DNA of 34,543 nucleotides from contig JAQWUD010000008.1 of assembly GCA_029242325.1 (NCBI GenBank), forward strand, positions 1 to 34,543. The letters run 5' to 3'. Origin of the DNA: Luminiphilus sp. GTDB lineage: Bacteria > Pseudomonadota > Gammaproteobacteria > Pseudomonadales > Halieaceae. The first letter of the stretch is position 1, and the number at the start of each line of letters is the position of its first letter. Of this stretch, positions 5,657-34,249 are shown piece after piece. The notes below the pieces were generated by a model. The model worked only from the letters and a program-made list of their open reading frames with translations, was not told the DNA's origin and made no database searches. The position numbers and the translations under genes are program-made.

Positions 5657-5675
5657 AACCGACGGATCGTCAGCT
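5657..5675. promoter_or_regulatory. Island operator copy 1 (upstream of P450-ALDH)
   Basis: AACCGAC-GGATC-GTCAGCT: a 7-5-7 inverted repeat with one mismatch in each arm against the consensus AACTGAC-N5-GTCAGTT shared by five other sites here. On the minus strand a -10-like TATTAT (complement of 5652-5657) abuts it, about 40 bp before the P450 start. A bound protein would cover the promoter. Confidence 0.75.
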
Positions 5676-5701
5676 TTAAAGGCCTGCTCTGGGATTCCTG
5701 C

Positions 5702-6451
5702 TTACAGCCTTGTAACCGACCCTCCGTCCACACACAGCACCTGCCCGGTGATCCAGGAAGCTTGGTCGGACAAGAGAAACAAGCAGGCCTCCACCACATC
5801 CGTCATTTCACCCAGCCGCTTGAGCGGCTGCTGGCTCATCAATGCATCAATGCGGTCCGCGGGGATAGTGCTGCGGGTTGCAGGGCTATCGATTGGCCCT
5901 GGAGCGATAGCATTGACTCTGATGTTGTGCGCACCAAGCTCTCGCGAGAGCGAGACGGTCAACGCATTGATTCCCGCCTTTGAAACACTGTAAAAATCAC
6001 CTCCTGACCAAGCCGCGGTCGACGATTGATTAACGATGGCGCCGCCGCCTCGCTTACGCATCTCAGGCGTCACCGCTCGCGTCATCCACAACATCCCGTT
6101 CATGTTGACCTCCATAAACCGGCGGTAATAGGCACTGTCTATTGTTAACAGCCCTTCTTTGCGCTTGCCCTGAAAAATTGCGGCGTTGTTAATCAATAAA
6201 TCAATACCGCCAAACTGATCACACACCTTGGCGACCATATCCTGACACTCGGACTCGTCAGCAATATCAGTTTTCACAAACAACGCCTGCCGAGCGTATT
6301 TCACCAGCGATTCAGCCACTGTCGAGCCTGCGTTCTGGTCCAGATCGACGATCACCACTTTGGCACCGCGATCCGCGAGCGCTTTCACGTAAGCCTCACC
6401 GATTCCGGCGGCTCCTCCCGTGACGACTGCTACTTTGTCCTGAAAGCTCAT
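5702..6451 (-). CDS. Short-chain dehydrogenase/reductase (SDR)
   Basis: A 249-residue classical SDR. The Rossmann signature TGGAAGIG (11-18), the structural NNAA (about 88-91), the catalytic Ser143/Tyr154/Lys158 set in SSTAAWSGGDFYSVSK, and the C-terminal ITGQVLCVDGG are all present. Asp36 at the end of the second beta strand favours NAD(H). Such enzymes interconvert hydroxy and keto groups; here it could oxidise a ring or side-chain alcohol. It is transcribed leftwards, divergent from the TetR gene and 88 bp upstream of the P450 on the same strand. No clear copy of the island operator is found in its own upstream region. The start at 6451 has a GAGGGAG-type site 8-9 bp upstream. Confidence 0.92.
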   Translation of the reverse strand: MSFQDKVAVVTGGAAGIGEAYVKALADRGAKVVIVDLDQNAGSTVAESLVKYARQALFVKTDIADESECQDMVAKVCDQFGGIDLLINNAAIFQGKRKEGLLTIDSAYYRRFMEVNMNGMLWMTRAVTPEMRKRGGGAIVNQSSTAAWSGGDFYSVSKAGINALTVSLSRELGAHNIRVNAIAPGPIDSPATRSTIPADRIDALMSQQPLKRLGEMTDVVEACLFLLSDQASWITGQVLCVDGGSVTRL

Positions 6452-6617
6452 AGTTGCACTCCCTCTTTTTCCTATTCTTCAGTACCGCACATGTTGGCAA
6501 TATTGAACCCACCCGCATGACGAGCAAAACATTCAATTTGTGGTTATTTGACCGTATCGGCCACTACACCTAGACTTCCGCGCGTTAACATGCCGACTCC
6601 GTTGATGGACCCGCACT
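6452..6617. promoter_or_regulatory. Divergent promoter region of SDR and TetR regulator
   Basis: A 166-bp divergent region expected to hold both promoters and any site for TetR autoregulation. I looked for the 19-bp island operator and found none; the nearest is a half-site-like TTTGAC near 6547. The regulator may therefore be constitutive, or may use a different site here. Confidence 0.4.
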
Positions 6618-7307
6618 ATGGCTAAACCAAAACAAAACCTTTACGGTCAAGAAATGGGTAACAAGGGCTCGCAAACGCGAGCAAAGATCCTCAAAGCGAC
6701 TCATGCGTTAATACAAAAGCGAGCGCTGCGCGAGCTAAAGGTCTCAGAGATTGGCGCGCTGGCCGGCGTGTCTTCCTCCACTTTTTATCTCTATTTTCAA
6801 ACTGTGTCCGAGGCTGCCTTGGCAATCGCTGAGGAAGCCAACCAATCCAATGAACAAATCCTTCGGATTCTGAATCGCGAGTGGACAGCTGCCAATGTCT
6901 TTGATAATTGCCGTGACTTCGTCAAATCCTACTTCAGTTTTTGGGCGGATCATGTGGCGATTCTCAGGCTCAGAAACTTTGCAGCCGACGAGGGTGACAA
7001 GCGATTTATTGACGCGCGGCGGCGATCGATTGAACCCATACACTTTGCACTCCAGAATAAGTTAAGTGACGCACAGGCCAGTAGCAGCAAGGCCCCCAAA
7101 CTCCATCCTCCCTCTGCGGCGTCTGTACTAGTTGCTACGCTGGAGCGTACTGCGGTTGTAGTACTGCTACCCTCCGCACACAAAGCCACGCGCTCCAAGC
7201 AAATCGAAGTCGTTGCTTACCTCATTGCGAGCGCCATACTTGGGGATTTTGGCGCGCCTCAAACTAACTCATACTCAGCTTCAGATAAGCCTGATACCAG
7301 CCGTTAA
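6618..7307 (+). CDS. TetR-family transcriptional regulator
   Basis: A 229-residue TetR/AcrR-type regulator. The N-terminal DNA-binding domain is clear: TRAKILKATHALIQKRALRELKVSEIGALAGVSSSTFYLYF, presented here as pieces TRAKILKATHALIQ (20-33), VSEIGALAGVSSSTFYLYF (42-60). The remaining ~165 residues form a variable ligand-binding and dimerisation domain with no sequence clue to the ligand; many catabolic TetR proteins sense acyl-CoA intermediates. It sits between the SDR it diverges from and the ligase operon it precedes. It is the only regulator in the window, which makes it the leading candidate to bind the six 19-bp inverted repeats, a size and symmetry typical of TetR operators. That link is inference. 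Confidence 0.92.
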   Translation: MAKPKQNLYGQEMGNKGSQTRAKILKATHALIQKRALRELKVSEIGALAGVSSSTFYLYFQTVSEAALAIAEEANQSNEQILRILNREWTAANVFDNCRDFVKSYFSFWADHVAILRLRNFAADEGDKRFIDARRRSIEPIHFALQNKLSDAQASSSKAPKLHPPSAASVLVATLERTAVVVLLPSAHKATRSKQIEVVAYLIASAILGDFGAPQTNSYSASDKPDTSR

Positions 7308-7347
7308 AAAAAGCAAGTTTGCGCTTCTTTAATCGATCAGCAGCGGA

Positions 7348-7353
7348 TATAAT
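7348..7353 (+). promoter_or_regulatory. Consensus -10 element for the ligase-SDR operon
   Basis: A perfect TATAAT immediately before operator copy 2, about 30 bp before the ATG at 7384. The -35 region (about 7325-7330, TTCTTT) is poor, suggesting a modest or activator-helped promoter. The adjacent operator would cover the transcription start, as expected for repression. Confidence 0.5.
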
Positions 7354-7372
7354 AACTGATAACATGTCAGTT
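7354..7372. promoter_or_regulatory. Island operator copy 2 (upstream of ligase-SDR)
   Basis: AACTGAT-AACAT-GTCAGTT matches the 7-5-7 consensus with one arm mismatch. It directly follows a TATAAT and ends 11 bp before the ATG of the acyl-CoA ligase, so a bound repressor would block transcription start. Confidence 0.8.
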
Positions 7373-7383
7373 TGGTGCAGGCG

Positions 7384-9000
7384 ATGGAATTTCCAGTCTG
7401 GAGTTCAGACGTCCGTGAAACAGTAACGGAAGTACTTTCCAGAACGGCTAAAAAGTATCCCGAACACATCTTCCTCGATTTTCAAGGCGAGAAACTTACC
7501 TTCCGACAGGTCGATGAAGATTCCTCTCGACTCGCACACGGTCTGGCCGCCAGAGGAGTCAAGTGCGGAGACACCGTTGGCAGCGTTCTTGATAGCAACA
7601 AAGACGCTGCACTGGTTTGGTTTGCCGCCAATAAGCTGGGCGCTATCCACGTGCCCGTTAACACCGCTTATAAAGGTGAGTATCTGCGACATCAACTTGC
7701 CGACGCGTCCTGTGCGGTGCTGATCGCAGAGCCCGACTATGCAATCCGGATTCTTGACGTTGCAGATGGACTACCATCGGCGCAAACACTCCTGATCAGA
7801 CGGCCCGTTTCGTTACCTGAATCTTCTCTGCTGGCGATCGATTCGCTGGATAATGCCTACAACGACAATACGACACCGCCGCCTGATCCGAATACCCCCA
7901 GCCACATATCCATGCTGATCTTCACTGGTGGAACCACGGGGCCCTCCAAAGGTTGCATGATCAGTCATAACTACGCCTGTAACCTGGCTCGTCAAATTCT
8001 TAAACGGGAAAATCGAGCTGCCGGCGATATCAACTGGACGCCTCTCCCCTTGTTTCACATGAACGCCACGGCCGGTTCGATCCTTTCTTGCTTAATGGTT
8101 GGCGCTACTGTGGCTATTTTCCCAAGGTTTTCGGTGTCACAGTTTTGGCATGACGTGGAGCGTAGCGGGGCTACTGTCGTCAACCTTTTGGGCGCAATGT
8201 TGAACTTTATCGCGGAAGCGCCCGATAACGACGCCTCGCTGCGCTACTTCGGAAAATTGAAAGCGGTGCGCGGCGCGCCATTTCCACCTGACCTTCAGGA
8301 GACCTGGAAGAGACGTTTTGGGGTGAAGTTCACGGGATCAAATGGCTACGGGCTGACAGAAGCAGCGAGAGTCACCTCTTTGCCCGATGGATTAGATGCT
8401 CCACCCGGATCATCAGGAAGAGTCAATGAGGATTTCGATCTGCGGGTCGTCGATGAGAATGACAATGAGCTCCCGGCGGGCCAGCCAGGAGAGATCATTG
8501 TGAGGCCGCGGCATCCGGACATTATATTCAGCGGCTACTGGAACCGACCAGCAGACACACTCAGCATACTGAAAAATTTGTGGCTACATACAGGGGACAT
8601 CGGACGACTCGACGAGGATAATTTTTTCTATTTCGTCGATCGCAAGAAAGACTATCTCAGGCGAAGGGGAGAAAACATATCGAGCTTCGAACTGGAAACC
8701 ACAATTAATACACATCCCGAAATTGATCAAGTCGCTGTTCATGCGGTGAAAACCGACTCCGAGGACGAGGTTAAAGTCACCGCCGTCATAGCATCTGGAT
8801 CAACGCTTGATGAGGAAAGCCTCTGTCGTTGGTGTATCGATCAGCTCCCATACTTCGCAGTCCCCCGGTTCATTGAGTTCCGGGAGTCGCTGCCCAGAAA
8901 CCCATTTGGTCGCGTGCTTAAATACCAGCTGCGTGACGAGGGGCGTACACCGAACACCTGGGACCGAGAAACTACGGATGTAGAACTTAAAAAAAGATAA
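7384..9000 (+). CDS. AMP-forming acyl-CoA synthetase (ANL superfamily, CaiC/FadD3-like)
   Basis: A 538-residue ligase that would activate a carboxylic acid with ATP and CoA. The phosphate-binding loop TGGTTGPSKG is at 181-190. YGLTEA, the hinge-region HTGDIG, and RRRGENISSFELE are all present, and the C-terminal catalytic Lys513 lies in PFGRVLKYQLR. The RRGENISS sequence resembles the carnitine/crotonobetaine ligase CaiC and related ligases for polar or cyclic acids rather than long-chain FadD. The ATG at 7384 is chosen; a TTG at 7372 would overlap the operator. It is followed 45 bp later by an SDR on the same strand. It probably adds CoA to the acid produced by P450 and aldehyde dehydrogenase action, but the substrate is not determined. 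Confidence 0.9.
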   Translation: MEFPVWSSDVRETVTEVLSRTAKKYPEHIFLDFQGEKLTFRQVDEDSSRLAHGLAARGVKCGDTVGSVLDSNKDAALVWFAANKLGAIHVPVNTAYKGEYLRHQLADASCAVLIAEPDYAIRILDVADGLPSAQTLLIRRPVSLPESSLLAIDSLDNAYNDNTTPPPDPNTPSHISMLIFTGGTTGPSKGCMISHNYACNLARQILKRENRAAGDINWTPLPLFHMNATAGSILSCLMVGATVAIFPRFSVSQFWHDVERSGATVVNLLGAMLNFIAEAPDNDASLRYFGKLKAVRGAPFPPDLQETWKRRFGVKFTGSNGYGLTEAARVTSLPDGLDAPPGSSGRVNEDFDLRVVDENDNELPAGQPGEIIVRPRHPDIIFSGYWNRPADTLSILKNLWLHTGDIGRLDEDNFFYFVDRKKDYLRRRGENISSFELETTINTHPEIDQVAVHAVKTDSEDEVKVTAVIASGSTLDEESLCRWCIDQLPYFAVPRFIEFRESLPRNPFGRVLKYQLRDEGRTPNTWDRETTDVELKKR

Positions 9001-9045
9001 CTGTCAGCAAACACGCGGCGATAGATCTCCCAATAGAGGCAAGAA

Positions 9046-9846
9046 ATGACTACAAATAATGTCCTTCACAACAAGGTCGCAGTAATCACCGGCGGCGCCT
9101 CCGGTATGGGCCGCGCTATCGCCCAGGCGTTTGTGGCAGCGGGGGCAAAAGTCATTGTTGGTGACGTGAACGAATCAGGGCTGTCATCACTTCAGCAAGA
9201 ATTGGGTGCATCCGCTCTAGCTGCGCGATGCGACGTAACACTTGAAGAAGACGTCATCAACTTGATCGCTTTAGGTGAAGAGAAATTCGACCGTATCGAT
9301 ATTGGCATCAATTGCGCCGGCGCCTCTGTACCCAAGCCTATACTCGAGATTGATGCTGAGGAATGGGACGATACTTTGGCCCTCAACCTGAAGGGTTTGT
9401 TTTTGGCACTCAAGCATGAGGCCCGGGCCATGAAGTCTCACGGGGAAGGCGGTGTCATCATCAATATGACGTCTGTGACAGCATCACTGGCCGCCACTGG
9501 TTTGTCACACTACTCGAGCGCAAAAGCAGGGGCCAATCAGCTTGTTAAAGTCGCAGCAAATGAATTCCGAGATCTGGGAATCAGAGTCATAGGGCTCGCC
9601 CCTGGCTTGGTGCGAACGCCGCTGGCGCAAATGATATGGGATGCAGACCTCGTTGATGCTTACAATACCTATGTCCCGAGTGGCCGTGCTGGGGAAGCCG
9701 ACGAAGTAGCCGCAATGGCGGTATTTCTCGCCTCACCAAGCGCCAGCTTTATCAATGGCAGCATCATTTTTGCCGACGGCGGACACGCATCCAATGGCGG
9801 CTGGACAGACATAGCGGGCATAGGGGACTACTATCGCGAGTTATGA
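9046..9846 (+). CDS. Short-chain dehydrogenase/reductase (SDR)
   Basis: A 266-residue classical SDR with TGGASGMG (15-22), Asp40 at the end of the second strand (NAD(H) preference), an NCAG variant of the usual NNAG, and the catalytic Ser143/Tyr156/Lys160 in TSVTASLAATGLSHYSSAK. The C-terminus contains INGSIIFADGG, the usual SDR end, followed by a short extension. The ATG is preceded by a good GAGGCAAG site. It lies 45 bp behind the acyl-CoA ligase and shares its operator-controlled promoter. It could be a 3-hydroxyacyl-CoA or ring-alcohol dehydrogenase; its place behind the ligase does not decide which. It converges with the MFS transporter gene. Confidence 0.92.
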   Translation: MTTNNVLHNKVAVITGGASGMGRAIAQAFVAAGAKVIVGDVNESGLSSLQQELGASALAARCDVTLEEDVINLIALGEEKFDRIDIGINCAGASVPKPILEIDAEEWDDTLALNLKGLFLALKHEARAMKSHGEGGVIINMTSVTASLAATGLSHYSSAKAGANQLVKVAANEFRDLGIRVIGLAPGLVRTPLAQMIWDADLVDAYNTYVPSGRAGEADEVAAMAVFLASPSASFINGSIIFADGGHASNGGWTDIAGIGDYYREL

Positions 9847-9847
9847 T

Positions 9848-9874
9848 GCCGGCAACCGATGCGGCGAGGCCGGC
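9848..9874. terminator. GC-rich inverted repeat between convergent genes (possible weak terminator)
   Basis: GCCGGC at 9848-9853 and again at 9869-9874 can pair across a 15-base loop, in the 33-bp gap where the SDR and MFS genes converge. No T-run follows, so intrinsic termination is doubtful. Confidence 0.3.
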
Positions 9875-9879
9875 GCGAC

Positions 9880-11271
9880 CTAGCGGACATCTCTCTTCAT
9901 ATCATCGCCCACCCCAGAGTGAAGCGCCGCGTAAAAAGGAATCGCGAAAAGCCCGACCCCTCCAAGCACCAAAAAAGGCAATCTAAAGGATGCGGAACTT
10001 AGCTCTCCGCCCGACTGATGCGCCGAGAAAAGCAACGCCATCGCGCCCAAACTGATTCCCAGACTCAGTGATATCTGCTGCGCCACCACACTCAAAGTCG
10101 AGGCTGGGTTTATCATGTCATCAGCCACCTCGGCGAATACCAGAACGTTTGCCGCCGCATAGTGGATAGTGAACATAAAATTTGTTGAGACCGCGATAGA
10201 AAAAATGAAGAGACTCGCCGTGTGTGGCGAATAAAAGCCGGGCACCATCACCAAACAGCTGGCCACCAAACCACTGGAGATGAGCACGCCTCTAAAGCCA
10301 AAGGTATCGATACTTCTCGACGCGAAAAAACGACCGGCCAAAGCACCAAGCGCGGCCCAAAACAAAACCGTGCCGCCTTGTGACGGAGACCAGCCCATTG
10401 TATTTTGGAGCATGATTGGCAGCAAGAAAGGGGTAGCACCAAGACTCATTCTAAGCAGCGCACCACCTAAGAGCGCGGCTCGGAAGCTGTTCAGTTTGAA
10501 CAAGCGAAAATTGAGTACTGGATTGGCGGATCTGAGGCAAAATTTCACCGCCCAAAAACTCAATACCACCGCCAGCGCGAGCAGAAAAGTGATAGTGAGC
10601 ACCGAAACTTCAGAAGCACCAATGACATTGGCTGCAAACATTACTGCCAGTAACGCCAAGCTCAGCAGCATCACGCCAACGGTGTCTAATTTTCCGGGCT
10701 TTGGGTAGTCAACCTCTCGCAGTGACACCAGCGTCCAACCCAAAGCAGCAATACCGATGGGCACATTCATCAAAAACACCCAATGCCAGCTCACATTCTC
10801 CACCAGAAAACCCGCGAGAGGTGGGCCGAGCATAGGCCCGAAGATCGCGGGCGCAGTAAACCAATTCATCGTGCGAACCAAATCGGACTTGGAAGAGCCG
10901 CGCACCGTAATTAGCCTGGCGACAGGGACCATAACCCCGCCTCCAAGGCCCTGCACCGCACGAGAAAGAATCAATTCGTATTGATTATCAGAGATTGCGC
11001 AGAAAACAGAGCCCAACAGGAAGCTGGCGATAGAGAGTCGAAAAACACGCAGAGCTCCCCAGCGATCGGCCAGCCAGCCGCTTATTGGGATCATCATCGC
11101 TGCCACAAAAAGATAAACCGTTAGCAACGGCTTCAACCGTACCGGACTAACCCCAAATTCTTGCGCCAATACGGGAAGAATTGTTGCCAAGGCATAGGTG
11201 TCTGATAGATGCATTAACAGGGCACTTGACAAGACTGCCGCAGTCAACGTGGATTTGCTGGATCTGCTCAC
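9880..11271 (-). CDS. MFS transporter, DHA2 (EmrB/QacA-like) type
   Basis: A 463-residue inner-membrane transporter with 13-14 predicted hydrophobic segments. The loop WLADRWGALRVF is the MFS A-motif region, and SRAVQGLGGGVMVPVARL plus PAIFGPMLGPPLAGFL match the EmrB/QacA drug:H+ antiporter family (DHA2). It starts 7 bp after the AMP-ligase stop, so the two are co-transcribed leftwards from the operator-bearing region at 12891. DHA2 proteins are usually exporters. In a degradation operon it could expel a toxic substrate or intermediate, or less usually take up the substrate; sequence alone does not decide. Confidence 0.9.
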   Translation of the reverse strand: MSRSSKSTLTAAVLSSALLMHLSDTYALATILPVLAQEFGVSPVRLKPLLTVYLFVAAMMIPISGWLADRWGALRVFRLSIASFLLGSVFCAISDNQYELILSRAVQGLGGGVMVPVARLITVRGSSKSDLVRTMNWFTAPAIFGPMLGPPLAGFLVENVSWHWVFLMNVPIGIAALGWTLVSLREVDYPKPGKLDTVGVMLLSLALLAVMFAANVIGASEVSVLTITFLLALAVVLSFWAVKFCLRSANPVLNFRLFKLNSFRAALLGGALLRMSLGATPFLLPIMLQNTMGWSPSQGGTVLFWAALGALAGRFFASRSIDTFGFRGVLISSGLVASCLVMVPGFYSPHTASLFIFSIAVSTNFMFTIHYAAANVLVFAEVADDMINPASTLSVVAQQISLSLGISLGAMALLFSAHQSGGELSSASFRLPFLVLGGVGLFAIPFYAALHSGVGDDMKRDVR

Positions 11272-11278
11272 TGATTTT

Positions 11279-12796
11279 TCAGAACTTCATCAACTTACGA
11301 AGCTCTGCTCGACTTACCTTCATCGAGTTGGTACGAGGTAACGATGCCAGTGAATGATACTCGGTGGGTACCATGTAAGCCGGTAACTTTGCCCGAACCA
11401 AGGTATCTAAACTCTCTGGCGTAGGCGCGCCCGCGCCCTTCGCAGTCTCGAGCACAGCGACGGGCACTTGCCCCAATCGCTTGTCGGGCTTACCCAAAAC
11501 TGCCGCTTCAACCACGTCCGGGTGCAGCTTCAGTTGCTTTTCCACCTCCTCCGGCTGAATTTTGAACCCACCGCGATTGATGGCCTGATCAGCCCTGCCT
11601 TCCAGAAACAAAAATCCATCCTGATCAAATCGAGCCAGATCGTTGGTGCGTATCCAATCAGCTCCAAAACGCTCAGATTTCACCTCAACAAGGCCAACCG
11701 AATTGGTGGGCGTGGGCGCAAAAGTCTTCGAGTTAACAACTCGCAGCTCCACTCCCCGTTTTACCTTGCCGACACTTCCTTGTTTTTCTGCTGCGTACTT
11801 CCTGTGATCTTCCAAAGTCCACCCCGCAAGCCCTCCCACAAATTCGGCGGCGCCATAATCCACCAGTATCGGGATGCCATAACGCGCCTCAAATTGCGAT
11901 TGCAGGTTAGGGTCCAGCGGTGCGGTACCAGATCTGATCGCTCTCAAACTGGCCAATGCGTCTGGCTCGGGCTCGGTGTCGAGTATCATTTGAATCATCG
12001 CGGGTACAAGGCTCGCCACCTTCGGTTTATGTAGTGCGACTGCCGAAACCCAGTCATCAACAACAAACTTCTCGAACAGAACTATGGGCCGAGCCTGATA
12101 CAACGCCAGCAACAGACCAAACAAACCACCAGCATGGCTGAATGGCTTAAAAAGTAGCGCTGGAGAGGATTTCAGCATGACACTGGGGTCTGCTTCTCCT
12201 TTATTTTGATCGCCCAGCCGAAGCGAGGCAATGATAGAGGCTCTCGCTACTGAGATTCTTTTCGGTGAGCCGGTAGTCCCACTGGTCAGCCGCTCAAGAA
12301 TCAGCTCCGGCTCCTCCGCCCTGAAAGGGCCACTACCCAACATGTCCAGTGTGGGAACTGTCTCTACGAGGCGCTGATCATCACTCATCACGAAACCGAC
12401 CGAACCTGCAGCCCGCGCATTCTCAACTGCTTCAGTGCTCTTCCAGTCGTGAACGCTCGCCACCACTGCCTCAAGCATTTGTTGCTCGATGTCATCCGCA
12501 AAACTTTTGCCCATTGTGCTCGGACGTAACGGCACCACCATACGACCGCTCAAGACGATACCCACAAACGCCATGACTGCCCCCGGCGTATTTGCTGCGG
12601 CCCAACCGACGGGGGCAAATTCGCTAATGCCATGCGCGTCGAGCGCTGCGCGCACCCTGCCGGCGCTTTCCGCTATCTCGCCCCATGTTAATGCAACATT
12701 GCAAGCGGTTATGGCGATGGTGCCTGGCGATATCTTCAACACGTTTTCTATATGACGCTGAAAATCTCTGTTTACAGCATCTTCAGAATGCTTCAC
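11279..12796 (-). CDS. AMP-forming acyl-CoA synthetase / ligase (ANL superfamily), second copy
   Basis: A 505-residue ligase clearly different from the one at 7384. The ATP loop TSGTTGSPKR lies at 171-180; YGAAEF replaces the usual YGxTE; RTNDLARF stands for the TGD hinge motif; NRGGFKIQPEEVE and the C-terminal catalytic Lys493 in LPRTNSMKVSRAEL are present. The start is a GTG at 12796 with AGGAC about 8 bp upstream; I found no better in-frame ATG. Its N-terminal half is short and degenerate compared with standard acyl-CoA ligases, suggesting an unusual acid substrate. It leads a two-gene unit with the MFS transporter and shares a divergent, operator-containing promoter region with the PrpD-like gene. 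Confidence 0.88.
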   Translation of the reverse strand: MKHSEDAVNRDFQRHIENVLKISPGTIAITACNVALTWGEIAESAGRVRAALDAHGISEFAPVGWAAANTPGAVMAFVGIVLSGRMVVPLRPSTMGKSFADDIEQQMLEAVVASVHDWKSTEAVENARAAGSVGFVMSDDQRLVETVPTLDMLGSGPFRAEEPELILERLTSGTTGSPKRISVARASIIASLRLGDQNKGEADPSVMLKSSPALLFKPFSHAGGLFGLLLALYQARPIVLFEKFVVDDWVSAVALHKPKVASLVPAMIQMILDTEPEPDALASLRAIRSGTAPLDPNLQSQFEARYGIPILVDYGAAEFVGGLAGWTLEDHRKYAAEKQGSVGKVKRGVELRVVNSKTFAPTPTNSVGLVEVKSERFGADWIRTNDLARFDQDGFLFLEGRADQAINRGGFKIQPEEVEKQLKLHPDVVEAAVLGKPDKRLGQVPVAVLETAKGAGAPTPESLDTLVRAKLPAYMVPTEYHSLASLPRTNSMKVSRAELRKLMKF

Positions 12797-12885
12797 TACG
12801 CTAAGTCCTCATTGTCGCTCAGAGTCTGCCGATCGAATCCCAGAAAACTCAATTGCCGACTCACTCGTGGTTCCACCAAATCACC

Positions 12886-12891
12886 ATTATA
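12886..12891 (-). promoter_or_regulatory. Consensus -10 element for the AMP-ligase/MFS unit
   Basis: On the minus strand this reads TATAAT, a perfect -10 hexamer abutting and sharing one base with operator copy 3, about 90 bp before the GTG start. No good -35 is seen on this strand. On the plus strand the operator arm CTGACG (12893-12898) and TATGCT 18 bp on could form the divergent promoter. Confidence 0.45.
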
Positions 12892-12909
12892 ACTGACGTA
12901 TAGTCATTT
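12891..12909. promoter_or_regulatory. Island operator copy 3 (divergent, AMP-ligase / PrpD-like)
   Basis: AACTGAC-GTATA-GTCATTT: the left arm matches the consensus perfectly and the right arm has one mismatch. It lies in the 220-bp divergent region, about 95 bp from the ligase start and 108 bp from the PrpD-like start, so it could control both directions. Confidence 0.75.
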
Positions 12910-13016
12910 TTTATAGTATGCTTTTCACAAGCGGTCTATCATCCGCAGACACACCCAATTTTGGCGCGGCGTTTTAAGACAACGTCCATGGAAAACCAAC
13001 AAGACCAGAGTCAATC

Positions 13017-19525: not shown

Positions 19526-19544
19526 AACTGACTATATGTCAGTT
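19526..19544. promoter_or_regulatory. Island operator copy 4 (divergent, amidohydrolase / acyl-CoA dehydrogenases)
   Basis: AACTGAC-TATAT-GTCAGTT is the best copy: both 7-base arms are perfectly complementary. A minus-strand TATAAA (complement of 19521-19526) abuts it, about 60 bp before the amidohydrolase ATG. It lies 82 bp before the divergent acyl-CoA dehydrogenase start, so it could control both operons. Confidence 0.88.
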
Positions 19545-24627: not shown

Positions 24628-25485
24628 TTAATCCCTCAGCAAGGCTCGTCCATTCCTTATTACCATCACGTCTCGCTCTTTGACCTTGGCCTCAAAAGAG
24701 ATCTCGAGTCCCTCTTTCCATAAATCGATCAGCAGGGTTTCTCCGGGGAAGACGGGTGCTGAAAAGCGAGCGGCGTGCCTCGCAATGGGCTGGGGATCGT
24801 AGTCGAGGAAAGCCTCCATGACTGCTCTGCAGGTGATTCCGTATGTGCATAAACCGTGCAAAATCGGCCTATCGAAGCCCGCCGACTTCGCAACGTCGTA
24901 ATCCACATGCAATGGATTTTTGTCTCCTGACAGTCGATACAACAAAGCCTGATTACAGGAGGTCGAATATTCAACCTGAGCGTCAGAGAGGCGCTCGGGT
25001 GGCGAATGGGGCTGGGGGGCAGCGGCACTCACACCTCCACAGCCTCCATCGCCTCTGGCGAAAATTGTGCGGTTGATCGTTGCAATGAGGTCGCCACTGG
25101 TTGCATCGCTCAGGTTAGTCTGCCTTACCACTAACGCGCCCTTATCTGCGCCCTTGTCGTAGACCTCGACCACGCCACTATCGGCAACTAATTTGGCGGC
25201 GACCGGCATGGGAGTATGAAGAATGGTCTCTTCTTCCCCATGCAGGACCTTTTGATAGTTAACACCGAGCTGTTGAGTACTGACTCCCGCCCCCCAAGCC
25301 ACGACTGTTGCCAGTGTCGGAACCGCAAGCAGCTCTTTTTCGTAGACAAATTTAAGCTCGTCATAACATTCGGACCTTGCACCCAACCCAACACCAAGCG
25401 CATAGAGAATAGTGTCTTTCTCAGAATATGAAAAAGTGACGCCCCTTTGTTCAAGGGAGAGCACCTCGGGATAATTAAGACTCAT
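24628..25485 (-). CDS. MaoC-type (R)-specific enoyl-CoA hydratase (MFE-2 hydratase-2-like)
   Basis: A 285-residue double-hotdog protein like the hydratase-2 part of peroxisomal MFE-2. The N-terminal hotdog lacks catalytic residues, and the C-terminal one carries the hydratase-2 motif YRLSGDKNPLHVDYDVAK with catalytic Asp188 and His193, followed by GFDRPILHGLCTYG. It would add water to trans-2-enoyl-CoA to give the (3R)-hydroxy form. It is transcribed leftwards, 4 bp after an MFE-2-type SDR, so the two together form a split equivalent of MFE-2, the enzyme of steroid and branched side-chain beta-oxidation. It is last in the operon begun by the P450cam-like gene. Confidence 0.93.
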   Translation of the reverse strand: MSLNYPEVLSLEQRGVTFSYSEKDTILYALGVGLGARSECYDELKFVYEKELLAVPTLATVVAWGAGVSTQQLGVNYQKVLHGEEETILHTPMPVAAKLVADSGVVEVYDKGADKGALVVRQTNLSDATSGDLIATINRTIFARGDGGCGGVSAAAPQPHSPPERLSDAQVEYSTSCNQALLYRLSGDKNPLHVDYDVAKSAGFDRPILHGLCTYGITCRAVMEAFLDYDPQPIARHAARFSAPVFPGETLLIDLWKEGLEISFEAKVKERDVMVIRNGRALLRD

Positions 25486-25489
25486 TCAG

Positions 25490-26374
25490 TTATTCCCTGT
25501 TCTCATTGACCGGGCCATAGGCGGTGACAAATCTCGGATTCCGTTCGGGGAACATCACCTTTCCCTCAGCGACAGCTCGAGCTAAATCCTGTGCGTCAAA
25601 ATTCTCATTGGGTACATAACCCGAATGCACTTCAAAACGCGCCTCTCCAACCCAGCCGCCCCCGGCCAAGAGGGTTTTTCCGGTCTGCTCTCCCGATAAA
25701 TTACTCACCATGTAAACCAGAGCCGGCGCCACCCTGTCTATGTGGAAAACCTTTTTGTAGTCGTCGGGCATGTGTGCGGTCATCGATGTGGCGGCGGCCG
25801 GACCCAGACACCACACCCTGATCCCGTATTTTTTGCCTTCTAAGGCCAGAGAGCTAGAAAAGCCAATGACACCGCTTTTTGCGGCTGCATAATTCGTCTG
25901 CCCAAAGTTACCCCGTAAGCCAACCGTCGAAGTGCAGTTCACGATAACACCTCCGCCGCCGCTCTCTTTCATCCAGGAAAAAATGGGGCGCGTAGCGCTG
26001 TAGAGCCCCTTCAGGTGAACTTGCATCACGGCATCCCACTGGTTTTCTTCCATCTTTACGAGAGACGAATCACGGAGAATGCCAGCGTTGTTTACCAAAA
26101 TATCGACTCGTCCAAAACGATCCAGCGCCGTCTCCAGAAGCGACTCTCCACCTGCGATCGCAGTAATGTCCGCGTAGCTTTCTACAGCGTTACCACCTTG
26201 ATCTTTGATGAGCTGAACCGTTTCATCGGCAGCAAAACTGGCATGCTGACCCGTCGCTATATCATTAACAACGATGCTCGCACCCTCTCGGGCAAGGGCC
26301 ATTGCGTAGCTCTGGCCCAGACCTGCTCCCGCCCCGGTGATTACCGCCACTTTACTGTCGAGATGCCCCACCAT
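25490..26374 (-). CDS. (3R)-hydroxyacyl-CoA dehydrogenase (MFE-2-type SDR)
   Basis: A 294-residue SDR of the peroxisomal multifunctional enzyme (MFE-2) dehydrogenase type. TGAGAGLG (13-20) with SYAMALAREGASIVVNDI, the NNAG (95-98), and the catalytic Ser149/Tyr162/Lys166 in QTNYAAAKSGVIGFS are typical. Asp38 favours NAD(H). It would oxidise (3R)-hydroxyacyl-CoA to 3-ketoacyl-CoA, the step after the MaoC hydratase encoded 4 bp downstream. The ATG at 26374 has GAGGAG directly upstream. The C-terminal tail lacks the hydratase and SCP-2 domains found fused in the eukaryotic protein. Confidence 0.93.
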   Translation of the reverse strand: MVGHLDSKVAVITGAGAGLGQSYAMALAREGASIVVNDIATGQHASFAADETVQLIKDQGGNAVESYADITAIAGGESLLETALDRFGRVDILVNNAGILRDSSLVKMEENQWDAVMQVHLKGLYSATRPIFSWMKESGGGGVIVNCTSTVGLRGNFGQTNYAAAKSGVIGFSSSLALEGKKYGIRVWCLGPAAATSMTAHMPDDYKKVFHIDRVAPALVYMVSNLSGEQTGKTLLAGGGWVGEARFEVHSGYVPNENFDAQDLARAVAEGKVMFPERNPRFVTAYGPVNENRE

Positions 26375-27180: not shown

Positions 27181-27345
27181 AAGATCCCTTGTTTCAGGTT
27201 GGTTTTCAGAGCCCAATGGATGGAAGGCTTTTTGCAAGGAGTTCCAATACACCCCGCTTGTTGGGTACTCCGCAACATGGGCTGAAAACCGAATGCCAAT
27301 AGCGGCCCAATCGAATTTGGCGTGGCCGGCTTTTTCACTCTGTAA
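27181..27345. repeat. 165-bp intergenic stretch with a long inverted repeat
   Basis: Within this otherwise tight leftward operon the gap before the crotonase is unusually long. GGTTTTCAG-AG-CCCA (27201-27215) can pair with TGGGCTGAAAACC (27278-27290): 13 base pairs with a 2-base bulge across a 62-base loop. No island operator or gene is visible. It may be a structured leader, an internal promoter region or a residue of a lost gene. Confidence 0.45.
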
Positions 27346-28842: not shown

Positions 28843-28878
28843 ACGGACAACTCAACATAACGACATCCGGGTTAATGG

Positions 28879-30105
28879 TCACCATCTCAGAGGCAAACAA
28901 TCCAAACCGAGCACACCCCCCCCCACAGCGTTGATCCTCGCGCCGTCTTCAACTGAAAAAGTCGGAATACGCGCCAACCATTCCTCCAAAGCTATGGTCA
29001 CTTCTAGACGAGCCAAGTGAGATCCCAGACATCGGTGTGGGCCAAACGAGAATGCGTTATGGCGATTTGGGCTACGAGAAAAATCAACATCGTGGGGTTG
29101 TGCAAATTCATCAGGGTCACGCGTGGAGAGGATTGTTGATGCTGTCACCATATCTCCCTTCTTGAATTTCACTCCCTGGAACTCATAATCCTGCGTTGTC
29201 ACTCTGGCTGTCGTGACAATTGAAAATGCACGAAACAATTCCTCTACCGCATCGGGCAGTAACTCGGGGCTGTTGCGCAACAGTTGTTGCTGATCAGGAT
29301 TCTCTGCGAGAAAACGAAATTGGAAGCCCAGAGAACCCACCACCGTATCGAGGCCCCCGATGAAAAGCATAACGACGATGCCTACCATCTCTTCATGAGA
29401 AATAGGAGACCCGTCGATTTCAAATTGAGTAATCAGAGACACTAAATCCTCACCCGGACTCTTGCTCCGCTCTGAAATGAGATCACTCAAGAATTGCTTA
29501 ACTTCCAACAGCGCTGGGCCGCGCCCCGCCGCGCTATGCACGATAGTATCCGCCCAAGACCGAAATTTGGGCAAGTCGCTTCTCGGAAGGCCAAGTAATG
29601 TGAGGAATATACTCACTGGATAAATCTCGCTGAACTCCGACACGAATTCACACGCACCTTTGGACGCCATACCCGCTATGAGCTCCCCGGCAAGATCACG
29701 AATAGCGTCCCGTTTCAGCTTCACTGCCGCCGGGGAAAATAAAGGGTTGAGTAGTTGTCGATAGTTAAGATGCTCTGGTGGGTCAACTTCAAGCGGTATG
29801 AGTTTCCAAGTCTCGCCCATCGCCTGGGCTCTGGGCTGGGCACTAGAAAAGATCTCCGGGTGCTGCAGCACGTAACGAATGTCTTCGGCTTTTGTGAGAA
29901 TCCAAGCACCCTTGTTTTTTGCACCTCGATTCTGGTGACTGATCGGGGAGTAAAAAATTCGCGGGCCTTGATGCAGTCCACCTAGCTGCTCATGGGGATA
30001 ACTGCCCAAACCACTCCGAAAGTCGCAAAGATGCACCAAATCGTGGGGAACGTGACTGGGAATCTCCGCCATATCAAACTCTGGACTACTGACAGCCTCA
30101 GACAT
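28879..30105 (-). CDS. P450cam-like cytochrome P450 (CYP101-type)
   Basis: A 408-residue P450 with strong overall resemblance to camphor 5-monooxygenase (CYP101A1), recalled from memory. Shared features are the VDPPEH region, the I-helix IGGLDTVV with the Asp253/Thr254 pair for proton delivery, EELFRAFSIV, DYEFQGVKFKKGD, HVDFSR-like and FSFGPHRCLGSHLAR with heme Cys359, and a C-terminus ending LPLRW. P450cam's camphor-binding Tyr96 aligns with Trp100 here, and Thr101 with Leu, so camphor itself is unlikely; a different terpenoid or alicyclic substrate is expected. It leads a five-gene leftward operon (ALDH, crotonase, SDR, MaoC) controlled from operator copy 5 at 30130. It needs ferredoxin, possibly the one at 22718. 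Confidence 0.93.
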   Translation of the reverse strand: MSEAVSSPEFDMAEIPSHVPHDLVHLCDFRSGLGSYPHEQLGGLHQGPRIFYSPISHQNRGAKNKGAWILTKAEDIRYVLQHPEIFSSAQPRAQAMGETWKLIPLEVDPPEHLNYRQLLNPLFSPAAVKLKRDAIRDLAGELIAGMASKGACEFVSEFSEIYPVSIFLTLLGLPRSDLPKFRSWADTIVHSAAGRGPALLEVKQFLSDLISERSKSPGEDLVSLITQFEIDGSPISHEEMVGIVVMLFIGGLDTVVGSLGFQFRFLAENPDQQQLLRNSPELLPDAVEELFRAFSIVTTARVTTQDYEFQGVKFKKGDMVTASTILSTRDPDEFAQPHDVDFSRSPNRHNAFSFGPHRCLGSHLARLEVTIALEEWLARIPTFSVEDGARINAVGGGVLGLDCLPLRW

Positions 30106-30129
30106 TGCTTGCCCTCCAGCAAATTTTGT

Positions 30130-30148
30130 AACTGACTATACATCAGTT
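30130..30148. promoter_or_regulatory. Island operator copy 5 (divergent, P450cam-like / acyl-CoA dehydrogenases)
   Basis: AACTGAC-TATAC-ATCAGTT: perfect left arm, one mismatch in the right arm. It lies 24 bp before the P450 start and 43 bp before the dehydrogenase start in an 86-bp divergent region, so binding should affect both promoters. A minus-strand TACAAA abuts it as a possible -10. Confidence 0.85.
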
Positions 30149-30191
30149 TTTGTGCTAAATTCCACTTGAAGAGATTGCAAGATATAGCGAT

Positions 30192-31322
30192 ATGGACTTC
30201 GATTTCACTGAGGATCAAAAGCATCTGCAGCAAGAGGCAAGGCGGTTTTTGAGCGCTAATTGCGGGACGGCGCGCGTGAGGCAAGTACTCGATGAGCCCG
30301 ATACCCCTTTCGATGCGGAGCTGTGGACCGCCATGGCGGATCTCGGGTGGCAAGGCGCGATTCTTCCAGAAGCATATGGCGGCTCGGGCATGGGCGCGAC
30401 AGACCTCTGTGCCATCGCCGAGGAACTTGGCAGAGCGGTCAATCCAACGCCCTTCGCTTCATCGGTTTATGCCTTTGCAGAAGCGGTAAACCTGCTCGGT
30501 AGCGAGCAACAAAAATCTCGAATCCTTCCTCATATCGCCTCGGGACACCAAATAGGGTGTATCGCGACAGCGGAGGGCGCCGGCCGGCCGGATCTTGAAT
30601 GCGCGTTTGTCGACAGCAGCATTACGGGCAGGAAAGTCCCCGTTACTGACGGCGACGTCGCCGACTGGGCTATTGCCTTAGCGAATGACAGCCATGGCGA
30701 AAGTCTCTATTTGATCGAGCTTAAACGCCATGGGGTTTCTACCAGCACGCTGCCTACACTTGATCCCACGAGGAGTTGCGCTGAAATCAAATTTGCAGGC
30801 GCGAGCGCTGCTCCCCTCGGAGAGGCAGGGAGTGGAAAAGCGCTTTTGCAAAAAATTCATGATCGAGCTGCTGTATTTGTGGCATTCGAGCAGCTAGGCG
30901 GGGCCGAGGCGGCGCTTGCCACCGCTCAGGACTATGCACAGCAACGATATGCATTTGGGCGTGCAATCGGTAGCTTTCAAGCGGTCAAGCACAAGCTGGC
31001 ACGGATATATGTTGCGAACCAGATCGCACGCTCCAATTGTTACTTTGGCGCGTGGGCTCTGGAGAGTCAAAGCGAAGAACTCCCGAGAGCGGCAGCCGCC
31101 GCAAGAATCGCAGCAACCCGCGCGTTTCAGCTCGCCGCCTCGGAAATGATAGAAATTTTTGGTGGCATCGGCACTACTTGGGAGACCGACTGCCACCTTT
31201 TCTATCGAAGAGCAAAACAGCTTTCGCTGTTTTTGGGGCCGATCAATATGTGGAAAGAGAGGTTGGCCGCCGAAATCGAAAAGCAATGGGCGCACGCGGA
31301 TAGCCATGGGGGAAATTTGTGA
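30192..31322 (+). CDS. Acyl-CoA dehydrogenase-like, smaller subunit of pair 2
   Basis: A 376-residue acyl-CoA dehydrogenase homologue. N-terminal ARRFL and GWQGAILPEAYGG segments and the C-terminal QQRYAFGRAIGSFQAVKHKLARI and FGGIGTTWETDCHLFYRRAK are recognisable. The central FAD-contact motif FSEP is replaced by a degenerate stretch (IATAEGAGRPDL), as in the non-canonical subunit of heteromeric steroid-type FadE pairs. Its TGA overlaps the GTG of the next gene in GTGA, so the two are translated together. It is divergent from the P450cam-like operon across operator copy 5. Confidence 0.88.
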   Translation: MDFDFTEDQKHLQQEARRFLSANCGTARVRQVLDEPDTPFDAELWTAMADLGWQGAILPEAYGGSGMGATDLCAIAEELGRAVNPTPFASSVYAFAEAVNLLGSEQQKSRILPHIASGHQIGCIATAEGAGRPDLECAFVDSSITGRKVPVTDGDVADWAIALANDSHGESLYLIELKRHGVSTSTLPTLDPTRSCAEIKFAGASAAPLGEAGSGKALLQKIHDRAAVFVAFEQLGGAEAALATAQDYAQQRYAFGRAIGSFQAVKHKLARIYVANQIARSNCYFGAWALESQSEELPRAAAAARIAATRAFQLAASEMIEIFGGIGTTWETDCHLFYRRAKQLSLFLGPINMWKERLAAEIEKQWAHADSHGGNL

Positions 31323-32548
31323 ACTTTCACGACACCGAGCACGAAGCATCGTATCGCCAGAAAGCAATCAACTTTCTTGAGCAACACGCCGAAAGAAAGG
31401 TAATCGGGCAACCCGGCATATCCTCATGTTTGTCGCCTCAAGCGCTACTGAAGGCCGCTAAGGAATGGCAGGCGCTCAAGGCAGACCACGATTTCGCCTG
31501 TATTTCGTGGTCAAAGGAGTGGGGAGGGCCCGGAGGGTCGGCTATCGAGAGCGTAATTTTTGCTCAGGAAGAACAGCAATTTGATATTCCCGAGGGCATT
31601 TTTCAAGTGAGTCTTGGGGTATGCATGCCATCGATTATCAAGCTTGGCTCCGAAGAACTGAAAAATCGATTTGTCAAACCTGCGCTCCGTGGAGAAGAAA
31701 TTTGGTGCCAACTATTCTCTGAACCAGCCGCCGGGTCTGACCTCGCAGGCATCCGAACTCGCGCCGAATCGACCTCAAGCGGATGGGTTGTCAACGGACA
31801 GAAGGTTTGGACAAGTAATGCGCACCTCTCAGATTTCGGCTTACTGTTGACGCGAACCGATCCGACCGTAGTAAAGCACTCGGGGCTCACCATGTTCTGG
31901 GTGGATATGCAGACTCCCGGCATTGAGGTACGACCCATTAATCAAATATCGGGACAAAGCGGATTCAATGAAGTCTACTTTACGGATGTTAAGATTCCCG
32001 ACAGCCAGAGAATTTCTGATGTCGGTGGTGGCTGGAAAGCGGCGCTCGGCACATTAGCAACCGAGCGACTGGCGATCGGTGGCGCCAAAGGGGCCGACTG
32101 CCGCGAATTGGTGGCGCTGGCCTCTCAACTGCCCTGCGACACAGGCACCGTCCTCAAAGATCCTCAATTCAGACAAAAACTCGCCGACTGGTATGTCAAC
32201 TCAGAAGGCATCAACTTGACCAGGATGAGGGCGCTCACCACACTCTCTCGAGGGGGGACACCGGGTCCAGAAATGTCGATCGCGAAATTGGTAATGGCCG
32301 AGCAACTCCAGCAGTTGTGTGATTATGCAATGGATCTACAAGCAGAATTTGGCATCATAAACTCACCGGATATTTCCGAACAGGCTGCTGTGTTCCAAAA
32401 AGGCTGGCTAAAAGCACCAGGATCGAGAATTGCCGGGGGAACTGACGAAATTTTGATGAATGTGATCGCCGAACGAGTATTAGGCATGCCTGGCGAAATA
32501 CGCGTCGATAAAAATCGGCCCTTCAACGAACTGCCAGTGGGGATTTAG
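31319..32548 (+). CDS. Acyl-CoA dehydrogenase, larger subunit of pair 2
   Basis: A 409-residue acyl-CoA dehydrogenase with the FAD motif QLFSEPAAGSDLAGIRTRAE (about 131-150), WTSNAHLSDFGLLLTRTD, and the C-terminal RIAGGTDEILMNVIAERVLG. The YEGTS-position Glu is Gly; Glu249 in LATERL is a candidate catalytic base. It starts at a GTG overlapping the previous stop. The order (degenerate subunit first, canonical second) is the reverse of pair 1. Together pair 2 would desaturate another CoA intermediate of the pathway, perhaps a shorter or differently branched side chain than pair 1. It converges with the Cys-less thiolase gene, with 13 bp between stops. Confidence 0.92.
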   Translation: MNFHDTEHEASYRQKAINFLEQHAERKVIGQPGISSCLSPQALLKAAKEWQALKADHDFACISWSKEWGGPGGSAIESVIFAQEEQQFDIPEGIFQVSLGVCMPSIIKLGSEELKNRFVKPALRGEEIWCQLFSEPAAGSDLAGIRTRAESTSSGWVVNGQKVWTSNAHLSDFGLLLTRTDPTVVKHSGLTMFWVDMQTPGIEVRPINQISGQSGFNEVYFTDVKIPDSQRISDVGGGWKAALGTLATERLAIGGAKGADCRELVALASQLPCDTGTVLKDPQFRQKLADWYVNSEGINLTRMRALTTLSRGGTPGPEMSIAKLVMAEQLQQLCDYAMDLQAEFGIINSPDISEQAAVFQKGWLKAPGSRIAGGTDEILMNVIAERVLGMPGEIRVDKNRPFNELPVGI

Positions 32549-32561
32549 AAAAGCAGCATCA

Positions 32562-33746
32562 TTATTGACGGCTTAGTATCAACGCCCCAGCCAAGGCCCC
32601 TCCCCCGACAGATGTAAGTGCCAATTCCGGATCGCCCTTGACTTGCCGGCCATCTGCCTCGCCCCAGAGCTGGAGACAAGACTCCCTCAACAAGCCAAAA
32701 CCATGTAATCGACCACCCGACAGTTGCCCACCACCGGTATTCATGGGACAGACGCCATCGAGAGTGATTTGTCCGGGCTGAGCGATATATTCTCCCCCCT
32801 CGCCCGGCGCACAAAATCCGAGTGCCTCCAACCAAATAATGGGCTGGATACTGAACCCATCATAAATATTGGCGAGGTCCATATCAGACGGCTTGAGATC
32901 GGTGCGCTGCCAGAGCCACTTGCCAACATCTCTCGCCGGCATACTTGTAATGTCCTCATATTGATCCCAACTGTCTTTTCCATAAAGGGCGCCGCTCATT
33001 GCCTCTATTCGAAGCGGCCTGTTTCGGGTTTCCTTAGCGGCGGCCACTCCCGAAACAATGAATGACACGGATCCATCTATCGGCGCATCGCAGTCATACA
33101 TGCATAGCGGATCTGAAATGATGCGACTGGATAAATAGTCCTCTAGAGAGAGCGACTCTCGATAAATTGCTGAGGGGGTTAACTGAGCATTTTTCCGAGC
33201 GTTAAGGACCCATGACGCCATTTGCTCTCGAGTCAAACCATGCCGATGCATTCTGACTTTGGTAATCATGGCGTGGCTGTGAATCGGCGATAGCGCATTA
33301 AATGGATAAGACCAGCCTTGCCAATTATTCCATCTGCGCGCGGGCGCACCGTCTTGCAATGGCGCCTCTCGCGATTGCTTCATCATGGAATACTGGATGG
33401 CTGTACGGTGAACAACAACATGGCGCGCCTGCCCCGTCGCCACCGCCATTGCTGCGGTCATTATCGATGAAAGCGTGCTGGGGCCCTCTTGCAACGAGGC
33501 AAACCAGTTTAGCCGTAAACCCAAGCCGTTCTTAATGTCGCGCAAAGGAACGGGCGTCATTCCGGGCGTCTCGCTCACTGCCGGATTGGTGCAGAGACCG
33601 TCTACGTCATCTACGGTCAATCCGGCGTGCGCAATCGCGCTCATAATTGAGTCAAGAGCCAGATCAATCGCCGGCTTATTGACATTGCGGCCAATCGCAG
33701 AGATTCCCGCTCCGGTAATACAAGCGTCACGCTCGAGGACCTTCAT
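32562..33746 (-). CDS. Cys-less thiolase-fold protein, Ltp2-like (probable retro-aldolase)
   Basis: A 394-residue thiolase-fold protein of the lipid-transfer/SCPx group that has lost its thiolase catalytic residues. Where the Cys-containing paralogue has TNACATG, this one aligns with EGPSTLS (Gly88 for Cys). HDCF becomes IYDGFS, GHPLGATG becomes SGGRLHGFG, and the second Cys in GSACAV is absent. In the steroid aldolase Ltp2 a similar loss of Cys accompanies a change from thiolysis to retro-aldol cleavage with a Tyr acting in catalysis, and Tyr in IYDGF is a candidate here. It overlaps its DUF35 partner (ATGA), matching the Ltp2-ChsH arrangement. It would cleave a tertiary beta-hydroxyacyl-CoA to a ketone plus a short acyl-CoA. 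Function is by analogy. Confidence 0.85.
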   Translation of the reverse strand: MKVLERDACITGAGISAIGRNVNKPAIDLALDSIMSAIAHAGLTVDDVDGLCTNPAVSETPGMTPVPLRDIKNGLGLRLNWFASLQEGPSTLSSIMTAAMAVATGQARHVVVHRTAIQYSMMKQSREAPLQDGAPARRWNNWQGWSYPFNALSPIHSHAMITKVRMHRHGLTREQMASWVLNARKNAQLTPSAIYRESLSLEDYLSSRIISDPLCMYDCDAPIDGSVSFIVSGVAAAKETRNRPLRIEAMSGALYGKDSWDQYEDITSMPARDVGKWLWQRTDLKPSDMDLANIYDGFSIQPIIWLEALGFCAPGEGGEYIAQPGQITLDGVCPMNTGGGQLSGGRLHGFGLLRESCLQLWGEADGRQVKGDPELALTSVGGGALAGALILSRQ

Positions 33747-34183
33747 TTAGCATCACCACTCGGTAAATCAGGCTCAAACAGCGGCAGCCAGACATCTTCC
33801 CGGTGATCAAAAAGCACCTTGACCGACTGACCAATAAAAACATCTTCAACCGAACAATTGACGATGTTTGTGGTCAGCCTGAGACCCTCTTGTTCCTCCA
33901 TCTCAACAATGGCCACTACAAAAGGCGCCTCTAGTCCTGCCTGCCACGCGTGCCGGTTTATCGTGAAAGTCAGCACTGTCGCTCGACCCGATACCTCGGC
34001 GGGCGTAATATCTCTGGATCTGCACTGAGCACAAATCGGGGCAGACGGATGGATGAAGTATCCACAAGCGTTGCATTGACTGAAACGAAGAACGCCGGCT
34101 TCGCCCGACTGCCAAAAAAATCGGTTTCGCTCATTGAGCGCAGGTAGGTCCCTCCGCGGCGATGCCAGACAATCAACTCTCAC
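33743..34183 (-). CDS. DUF35 OB-fold zinc-ribbon protein, partner of Cys-less thiolase
   Basis: A 146-residue DUF35 protein with zinc-ribbon Cys37/Cys40/Cys51/Cys54 in CNACGYFIHPSAPICAQC and a C-terminal OB-fold (TFTINRHAWQAGLEAPFVVAIVEME). In steroid degraders the homologous domain (ChsH2 C-terminus) binds the Ltp2 aldolase and is needed for activity; here it is a separate protein. The GTG at 34183 is chosen because AGGGGAG lies 9 bp upstream; a TTG at 34219 would place the site inside the gene. Its stop overlaps the thiolase start in ATGA. The upstream region holds operator copy 6. Confidence 0.87.
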   Translation of the reverse strand: MRVDCLASPRRDLPALNERNRFFWQSGEAGVLRFSQCNACGYFIHPSAPICAQCRSRDITPAEVSGRATVLTFTINRHAWQAGLEAPFVVAIVEMEEQEGLRLTTNIVNCSVEDVFIGQSVKVLFDHREDVWLPLFEPDLPSGDAK

Positions 34184-34230
34184 AAATACTGCTCCCCTCT
34201 TATCATGACGACAAACCAAGCAACGCCAAT

Positions 34231-34249
34231 AGTTGACGCACCGTCAGTT
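34231..34249. promoter_or_regulatory. Island operator copy 6 (divergent, DUF35-aldolase / dehydratase)
   Basis: AGTTGAC-GCACC-GTCAGTT: perfect right arm, left arm with two mismatches. On the plus strand the left arm forms a near-consensus -35, TTGACG (34233-34238), with CATAAG-like bases about 16 bp on. It lies 48 bp before the DUF35 start and 91 bp before the dehydratase start. Confidence 0.72.

Follow-up and report, generated by a model that had tools for sequence, protein, structure and literature searches.

Few regulators are known for steroid- and terpenoid-type catabolism, and the list for steroid pathways is called very short in the paper on EdcR. KstR and KstR2, which act in actinobacterial cholesterol catabolism, have CoA-thioester inducers; they pair a TetR protein with a short palindrome, copies of which stand between divergent genes across a large acyl-CoA catabolic cluster. 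A similar layout is found in the stretch of DNA analysed here, 34,543 nucleotides of Luminiphilus sp. (GenBank assembly GCA_029242325.1, contig JAQWUD010000008.1, positions 1 to 34,543), referred to as the window. It contains a 30-kb catabolic gene island, a gene for a TetR-family regulator (6618..7307, plus strand) and six palindromes of the type AACTGAC-N5-GTCAGTT. We propose, with a probability of roughly 85% judged from sequence comparison, that the six palindromes are operators of the local TetR, which would repress the island until an acyl-CoA inducer is present. Taken separately, it is highly probable that the regulon exists, and very probable that the local TetR is its repressor.

The palindromes start at positions 5657, 7354, 12891, 19526, 30130 and 34231, exactly where an earlier note on this DNA had placed them, and each has 7-base arms and a 5-base centre. 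The site at 19526 matches the pattern without mismatch, those at 7354, 12891 and 30130 with one mismatch, and those at 5657 and 34231 with two. As the note had also claimed, all six are intergenic, located in the 7.3% of the window that the gene map leaves outside genes, and four of them (12891, 19526, 30130 and 34231) lie between divergent genes. The flanks, described in the note as mostly conserved, extend the conserved unit beyond 19 bp to about 23 bp, as A/T positions on both sides are kept in other species. Allowing up to three mismatches, the window holds 9 matches compared to 1.02 expected (standard deviation 1.08, maximum 4; 100 dinucleotide shuffles). The matrix scan that had been suggested was performed with a symmetric 23-bp matrix built from the window sites only. 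The six sites are the top six of the window, the weakest at 24.7 bits. When the matrix is built with one site left out, each held-out site remains within the top six (ranks 6, 6, 2, 1, 5 and 6); the lowest held-out score is 18.8 bits, while the best non-site reaches 15.0 bits.

In the whole genome (2,759,322 bases), 19526 is the sole place without mismatch. All four places with at most one mismatch are located in the 34.5-kb window contig, and six of the 11 places with at most two mismatches are the window sites. A matrix scan of nine other genome stretches, including the five other two-mismatch places, reaches a maximum of 15.4 bits. Two weak matches on contig C19 (15.4 and 14.1 bits) were taken as chance; the 14.1-bit match falls inside listed open reading frames and the 15.4-bit match, judged by eye, within the last part of a frame that resembles ribosomal protein L23 and is shorter than the open reading frame list admits. 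When three mismatches are tolerated, the genome-wide count is near background, with 111 places versus 93 for a reversed control. The perfect pattern occurs in 9 of 390 genomes of the order versus 6 for the reversed control (our own count from the table), and the eight genomes besides the window's own are not those that carry a TetR homologue.

The evidence that ties the palindrome to this TetR comes from other bacteria. We sampled 33 loci of TetR homologues from genomes of the window's order and others, with Sphingomonas, Azospirillum and Massilia plasmids among the motif-positive ones. With the window matrix, the loci as first fetched (645 kb in total) contain 26 matches that reach 16 bits. 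With neighbouring stretches added, 37 sites of at least 16 bits are found in 11 of the 33 loci, window excluded, a count after selection since the 11 positive loci were chosen by their sites and 8 of them extended. Of these sites, 33 are intergenic, compared to 16% of bases in a rough open reading frame map, and 200 column-permuted palindromic matrices yield at most 5 matches on the same sequence. No match of 16 bits or more occurs in the 17 control stretches (329 kb). Of an initial 20, three were reassigned to the positive set before counting: L100, which had 4 such matches because it belongs to the contig cluster of L052, together with L098 and L101. Loci L021 to L023 were left out of the locus counts, and the short loci of weak homologues (L003 to L018 and L020) reach 11.5 bits at most. 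TetR-family regulators often control their own gene, and in 8 of the 11 motif loci the TetR gene is preceded, at a distance of no more than about 400 bp, by a site scoring 16 bits or higher. Since the same palindrome recurs at homologues of the regulator and not in the controls, we favour one operator and one regulon under the local TetR, as the earlier note had predicted. The palindrome is not equally frequent in coding sequence or genome-wide and it is conserved in homologous clusters, the two points by which that prediction was to be judged.

Individual loci illustrate this recurrence. Massilia putida has two sites between TetR and a divergent DUF1302 gene and two more at further gene starts. 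Sphingomonas paeninsulae has one site in the divergent promoter of TetR and a CoA-transferase, and a 14.1-bit site between a ferredoxin-ALDH-P450-SDR run and an ACAD gene. The neighbours of its tetR are of the kinds found in the window (SDR, P450, ALDH) but oriented towards TetR, not away from it; the best window match is P450b for the P450 (37%) and ALDH2 for the ALDH (46%), and the identities for SDR1 and ECH2 are 49% and 62%. Genome G361 carries 8 sites of at least 16 bits along 45 kb and genome G288 carries 7 along 35 kb; in both, one of these lies at the gene for an acyl-CoA ligase that shares 52-53% identity with FadD1 of the window. In genome G053, a site with the variant arm ATCTGAC precedes an amidohydrolase-TetR pair, possibly operator drift alongside the regulator. 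This locus (L041, about 9523-11740) combines the TetR homologue with an amidohydrolase (50% to that of the window), thiolase and OB-fold homologues (42% each) and two palindromes with ATCTGAC arms. We also note a gene for a distant KshA-type Rieske oxygenase that is divergent from tetR, with an operator between the two, in G361 (L051, 8429-9427) and in genome G243 (L053, 1007-2011).

The same motif is recovered de novo. We searched the regions upstream of nine TetR genes outside the window for palindromes with any 7-base arm and a spacer of 0-10 bases. The top result, AAACTGA-N7-TCAGTTT, shares first place with the version of itself shifted by one base and corresponds to the palindrome of the window. 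A foreign matrix, made of the best site from each of these nine regions, which had been picked after the window matrix flagged their loci, places the six window sites at ranks 1-6 with 28.5 to 18.9 bits. The next window match has 15.1 bits at 25473, and controls reach at most 12.5 bits. The sites picked for this matrix are weak in genomes G250 (3 mismatches) and G290 (4 mismatches).

The regulator belongs to the TetR family, with matches to TetR_N (PF00440) at 33.0 bits (cut-off 24) and to TetR_C_38 (PF19352) at 59.1 bits (cut-off 23.9). It is not assigned to the ScbR-type autoregulator receptors, since NF041196 scores 28.9 bits versus the NCBIfam threshold of 150. The nearest solved structure is EthR, with E 4e-5 by sequence and E 2.8e-13 by sequence profile. 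In mycobacteria, EthR regulates a monooxygenase. The PF19352 domain has no match in any of 14 well-known control genomes. Among 36 genomes of the same genus, the best TetR match has E 1.5e-7 with 27% identity and no ortholog is seen; a scan of the genome_contigs set with the TetR yields three distant loci. In the 390 genomes of the order, a homologue with E ≤1e-12 is present in 8 besides the own genome, with 30-37% identity. Among the best 7-8 candidates per genome, a profile search at E ≤1e-20 finds the window's own TetR only in the class (369 genomes) and TetR in 3 genomes, own included, in the phylum (398 genomes). In family f251 of the phylum, 16 of 149 genomes have a homologue. Plasmid homologues occur in Sphingomonas, Sphingopyxis, Novosphingobium, Azospirillum, Sphingobium and Massilia and, more distantly, in Streptomyces.

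Motif presence follows the protein tree and the recognition helix. The tree has 38 rows, 12 with the motif (window included) and 26 others. The motif rows do not form one clade and require 4 changes compared to 10.3 in shuffles (0 of 500 as low), a clustering that near-copies alone can produce. Two supported subclades, one with 3 rows and one with 6, consist of motif rows throughout, and the placement of the window TetR itself is weak. Judged by eye, the recognition helix S-x-[AS]-[TA]-F-Y-x-Y-F is present in 12 of 12 motif rows versus 1 of 26 others. This lone row is from Streptomyces; its helix is that of the variant G053 row, and its vicinity lacks a site. For L087, one of the 22 loci without the motif, no TetR reading frame was obtained for the tree. 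A further observation concerns L075 to L090, 16 loci of one family with TetR homologues, which mostly carry the helix SPSNFYTYF or SAPTFYTYF, none with this operator.

Several observations weigh against assigning the six palindromes to the local TetR. The intergenic region 6452-6617 shared by tetR and SDR1 (5702-6451) contains no operator, with a best score of 2.0 bits with the window matrix; autoregulation of the window tetR seems to be lost or indirect. The 22 homologue loci outside the motif-positive set (401 kb), 16 of them from one family, have no match that reaches 16 bits. At tetR, G290 has only a weak site (13.8 bits) and Azospirillum has none. Protein identities are low, 27-35% for motif rows and 30-37% for local matches, and the single-sequence AlphaFold model of the TetR is too poor for use (pLDDT, the predicted local distance difference test, of 45). 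The choice of the nine upstream regions, but not the motif found in them, depends on the window. In 200 first-order Markov windows, the best score has a mean of 10.9 and a maximum of 19.0 bits, and 3 matches reach at least 18 bits. In Paenibacillus (L021, 3785-3850), which has a distant TetR, a TGAC-repeat hairpin gives two overlapping 17.1-bit matches about 6 kb from the TetR gene; it is probably a terminator or chance. Since simulated windows and this repeat reach such scores, isolated matches near 17-18 bits can arise by chance.

Two of these observations, the window tetR lacking an upstream site and the 22 of 33 homologue loci lacking one, speak for a rival in which the palindromes serve a different regulator, whose gene lies elsewhere in the genome, and the island TetR is a bystander. 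Against this, most motif loci have a site at the TetR gene, and motif presence clusters both in the TetR tree and by recognition helix; no second regulator is recognised among the island proteins scanned. We consider a bystander TetR improbable.

The position of the sites relative to the promoters bears on the direction of control. The earlier note had five sites abutting a -10-like hexamer. This agrees with our count, which took the best -35/-10 pair on each strand and had no control: a hexamer with 0-1 mismatches touches or overlaps five of the six sites. The conserved A/T flank of the palindrome itself contributes to TATAA. The exception is 34231, for which the best -35/-10 pairs have 2 mismatches. 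An operator over or abutting the -10 is the usual repression geometry of the TetR family. Nothing directly favours the TetR acting as activator or dual regulator at these sites, beyond the fact that the -35 part of the best promoter-like pair is also covered by the site at some promoters. With five of six sites at -10-like hexamers, we regard activation as even less probable than a bystander TetR. Finally, the near-background counts of loose matches in the genome and of perfect matches in the order are all that speaks for chance or compositional repeats, A/T-rich intergenic palindromes devoid of function, and this explanation is contradicted by the window enrichment, the held-out ranks, the confinement of 0-1 mismatch places to one contig, the recovery by the foreign matrix and above all the recurrence of sites at homologue loci and at the TetR gene in other bacteria, which leaves it a negligible probability.

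For repression by the local TetR, we propose the following mechanism. A dimer of the TetR would bind the approximately 23-bp operator WWAACTGAC-N5-GTCAGTTWW at the six predicted sites. Bound over or next to the -10 regions, it would keep RNA polymerase from some ten transcription units. The substrate, in the most likely case converted to an acyl-CoA by a ligase of the island, would fill the C-terminal pocket of the TetR, which would then let go of the DNA and switch the island on. Here binding, repression and the identity of the inducer are inferred steps.

According to the gene map, with names from the open reading frame list and family searches of window proteins, the six sites together precede about ten transcription units with some 28 genes, in line with the number of units given by the earlier note. 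All six operators are recovered in the top six both when held out and with the foreign matrix. Operator 1 (5657..5675) is located upstream of P450a (4387-5613) and ALDH1 (2919-4400) on the minus strand, with a -10-like TATTAT at its end on that strand. Just downstream of ALDH1, a minus-strand frame of 152 residues (2366-2824) has a weak match to a ring-dioxygenase small subunit family (31 bits, cut-off 230) and may be a further member of this operon. Operator 2 (7354..7372) lies directly upstream of the acyl-CoA ligase gene FadD1 (7386-9000, likely ATG at 7386) and SDR2, and TATAAT at 7348-7353 abuts its left arm. Operator 3 (12891..12909) separates FadD2-MFS1 (minus) from MmgE/PrpD-SDR3 (plus). 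Operator 4 (19526..19544) separates amidohydrolase-OB-fold1-thiolase1-MFS2 (minus) from ACAD1-ACAD2-ECH1-ferredoxin-SDR4-MBL (plus), the ferredoxin frame being assigned by eye. Operator 5 (30130..30148) is located between P450b-ALDH2-ECH2-SDR5-MaoC (minus) and ACAD3-ACAD4 (plus), and operator 6 (34231..34249) between OB-fold2-thiolase2 (minus) and a plus-strand frame cut by the contig end. Because the contig ends inside this frame (34340-34543, 68 residues that are MaoC-like by eye), the regulon probably continues past it. A possible, unproven seventh site is the 25473 match (25473..25491), located at the start of MaoC (24628-25485, minus); it scores 10.3-13.6 bits in the leave-one-out runs and is outside the top eight of the full window matrix.

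The best reading of the island is a pathway for a bulky acyl-CoA under a TetR repressor regulon, as far as gene content and operators can tell. The nearest solved structures are ancestral CYP125, and also CYP124, for P450a, camphor P450 for P450b, a lipid-transfer protein (6ok1) for thiolase2 and acyl-CoA dehydrogenases including 4x28 for ACAD3. By family and structure matches, the region 28879..34543 contains a set of P450, two ACADs, thiolase, OB-fold and, by eye, MaoC-like genes, which we take to resemble actinobacterial sterol side-chain operons. Because of this resemblance, it is likely that the island handles a bulky acyl side chain. Another contig of the same genome, C42 (40 kb; L130 and L131), encodes two KshA-like as well as KstD-like, HsaC-like, FadD3-like and steroid-24-oyl-CoA-synthetase-like genes, and is likely a steroid-ring cluster. 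It carries no operator copy, with a best score of 8.4 bits with the window matrix. The claim that one repressor releases the entire pathway is perhaps too wide, as this cluster, tetR and the SDR gene at 5702-6451 have no site. A steroid as substrate was considered and not adopted, given the steroid-ring contig without operator and marker genes that do not discriminate. Across a set of 24 genomes, KshA_C is matched in 9 of 9 genomes with the TetR versus 11 of 15 without, and HsaC, never at the curated cut-off, in 8 of 9 versus 12 of 15, so that neither marker separates the two groups. The sole KshA_C match of G361, the Rieske gene next to TetR, is a distant one (E 8e-28).

Beyond the window, we lean towards an undescribed TetR subfamily with a common operator of about 23 bp. 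In alphaproteobacteria, betaproteobacteria and the window's order, it would serve as the master repressor of large islands whose substrates are bulky acyl-CoA compounds of cyclic or isoprenoid type. It would be a proteobacterial counterpart of KstR, separately evolved and travelling with its regulon. A conserved operator would allow the gene set of each such pathway to be predicted from sequence, and the TetR together with a promoter offers a test bed for the inducer and thereby for the pathway substrate.

The operator strings of the window, PF19352 and TetR_C_38 were not found in the literature searched, outside of which most subscription papers lie, and none of the published texts compared shows this operator. 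PsrA operators are GAAAC-type inverted repeats, and the arms in the window are not of that form. The remaining comparisons refer to the accessible parts of the published descriptions. KstR2 has the operator AnCAAGnnCTTGnT of 14 bp with a 2-bp centre. In contrast, the six sites have AACTGAC arms and a 5-bp centre and do not match it by eye in arm or spacer, in agreement with the earlier note, which had not recognised the motif as that of KstR2. EdcR, from estrogen degradation in Caenibius tardaugens, is likewise a TetR repressor of a proteobacterial steroid-type cluster, in which its proposed operators cover the -10 boxes. Its proposed self-reverse-complementary operator TnnCnnTACnAnTnGTAnnGnnA differs from the palindrome described here and has no exact match in the window, and EdcR is apparently a PF16859 protein whereas the window TetR belongs to PF19352. 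The TetR gene of the bsd I bile-salt cluster of the same species also lies in a side-chain degradation cluster with an amidohydrolase; compared by operator only, its proposed palindromes ATAGGGCCATTG and GCATGCGGGATGC differ from that of the window. AtuR and RdmA from Pseudomonas, regulators of acyclic terpene and diffusible signal factor (DSF) catabolism, are similar as TetR repressors of a branched, terpenoid-type cluster, with an operator of two 13-bp repeats, AGCAAGCGCTTGG and CCAAGCGCTTGCT, from which the window sites differ by eye. The window appears to share the design of KstR2, EdcR and AtuR, in which a TetR repressor acts on palindromic sites in the promoters of catabolic genes, with an operator that differs from each of theirs.

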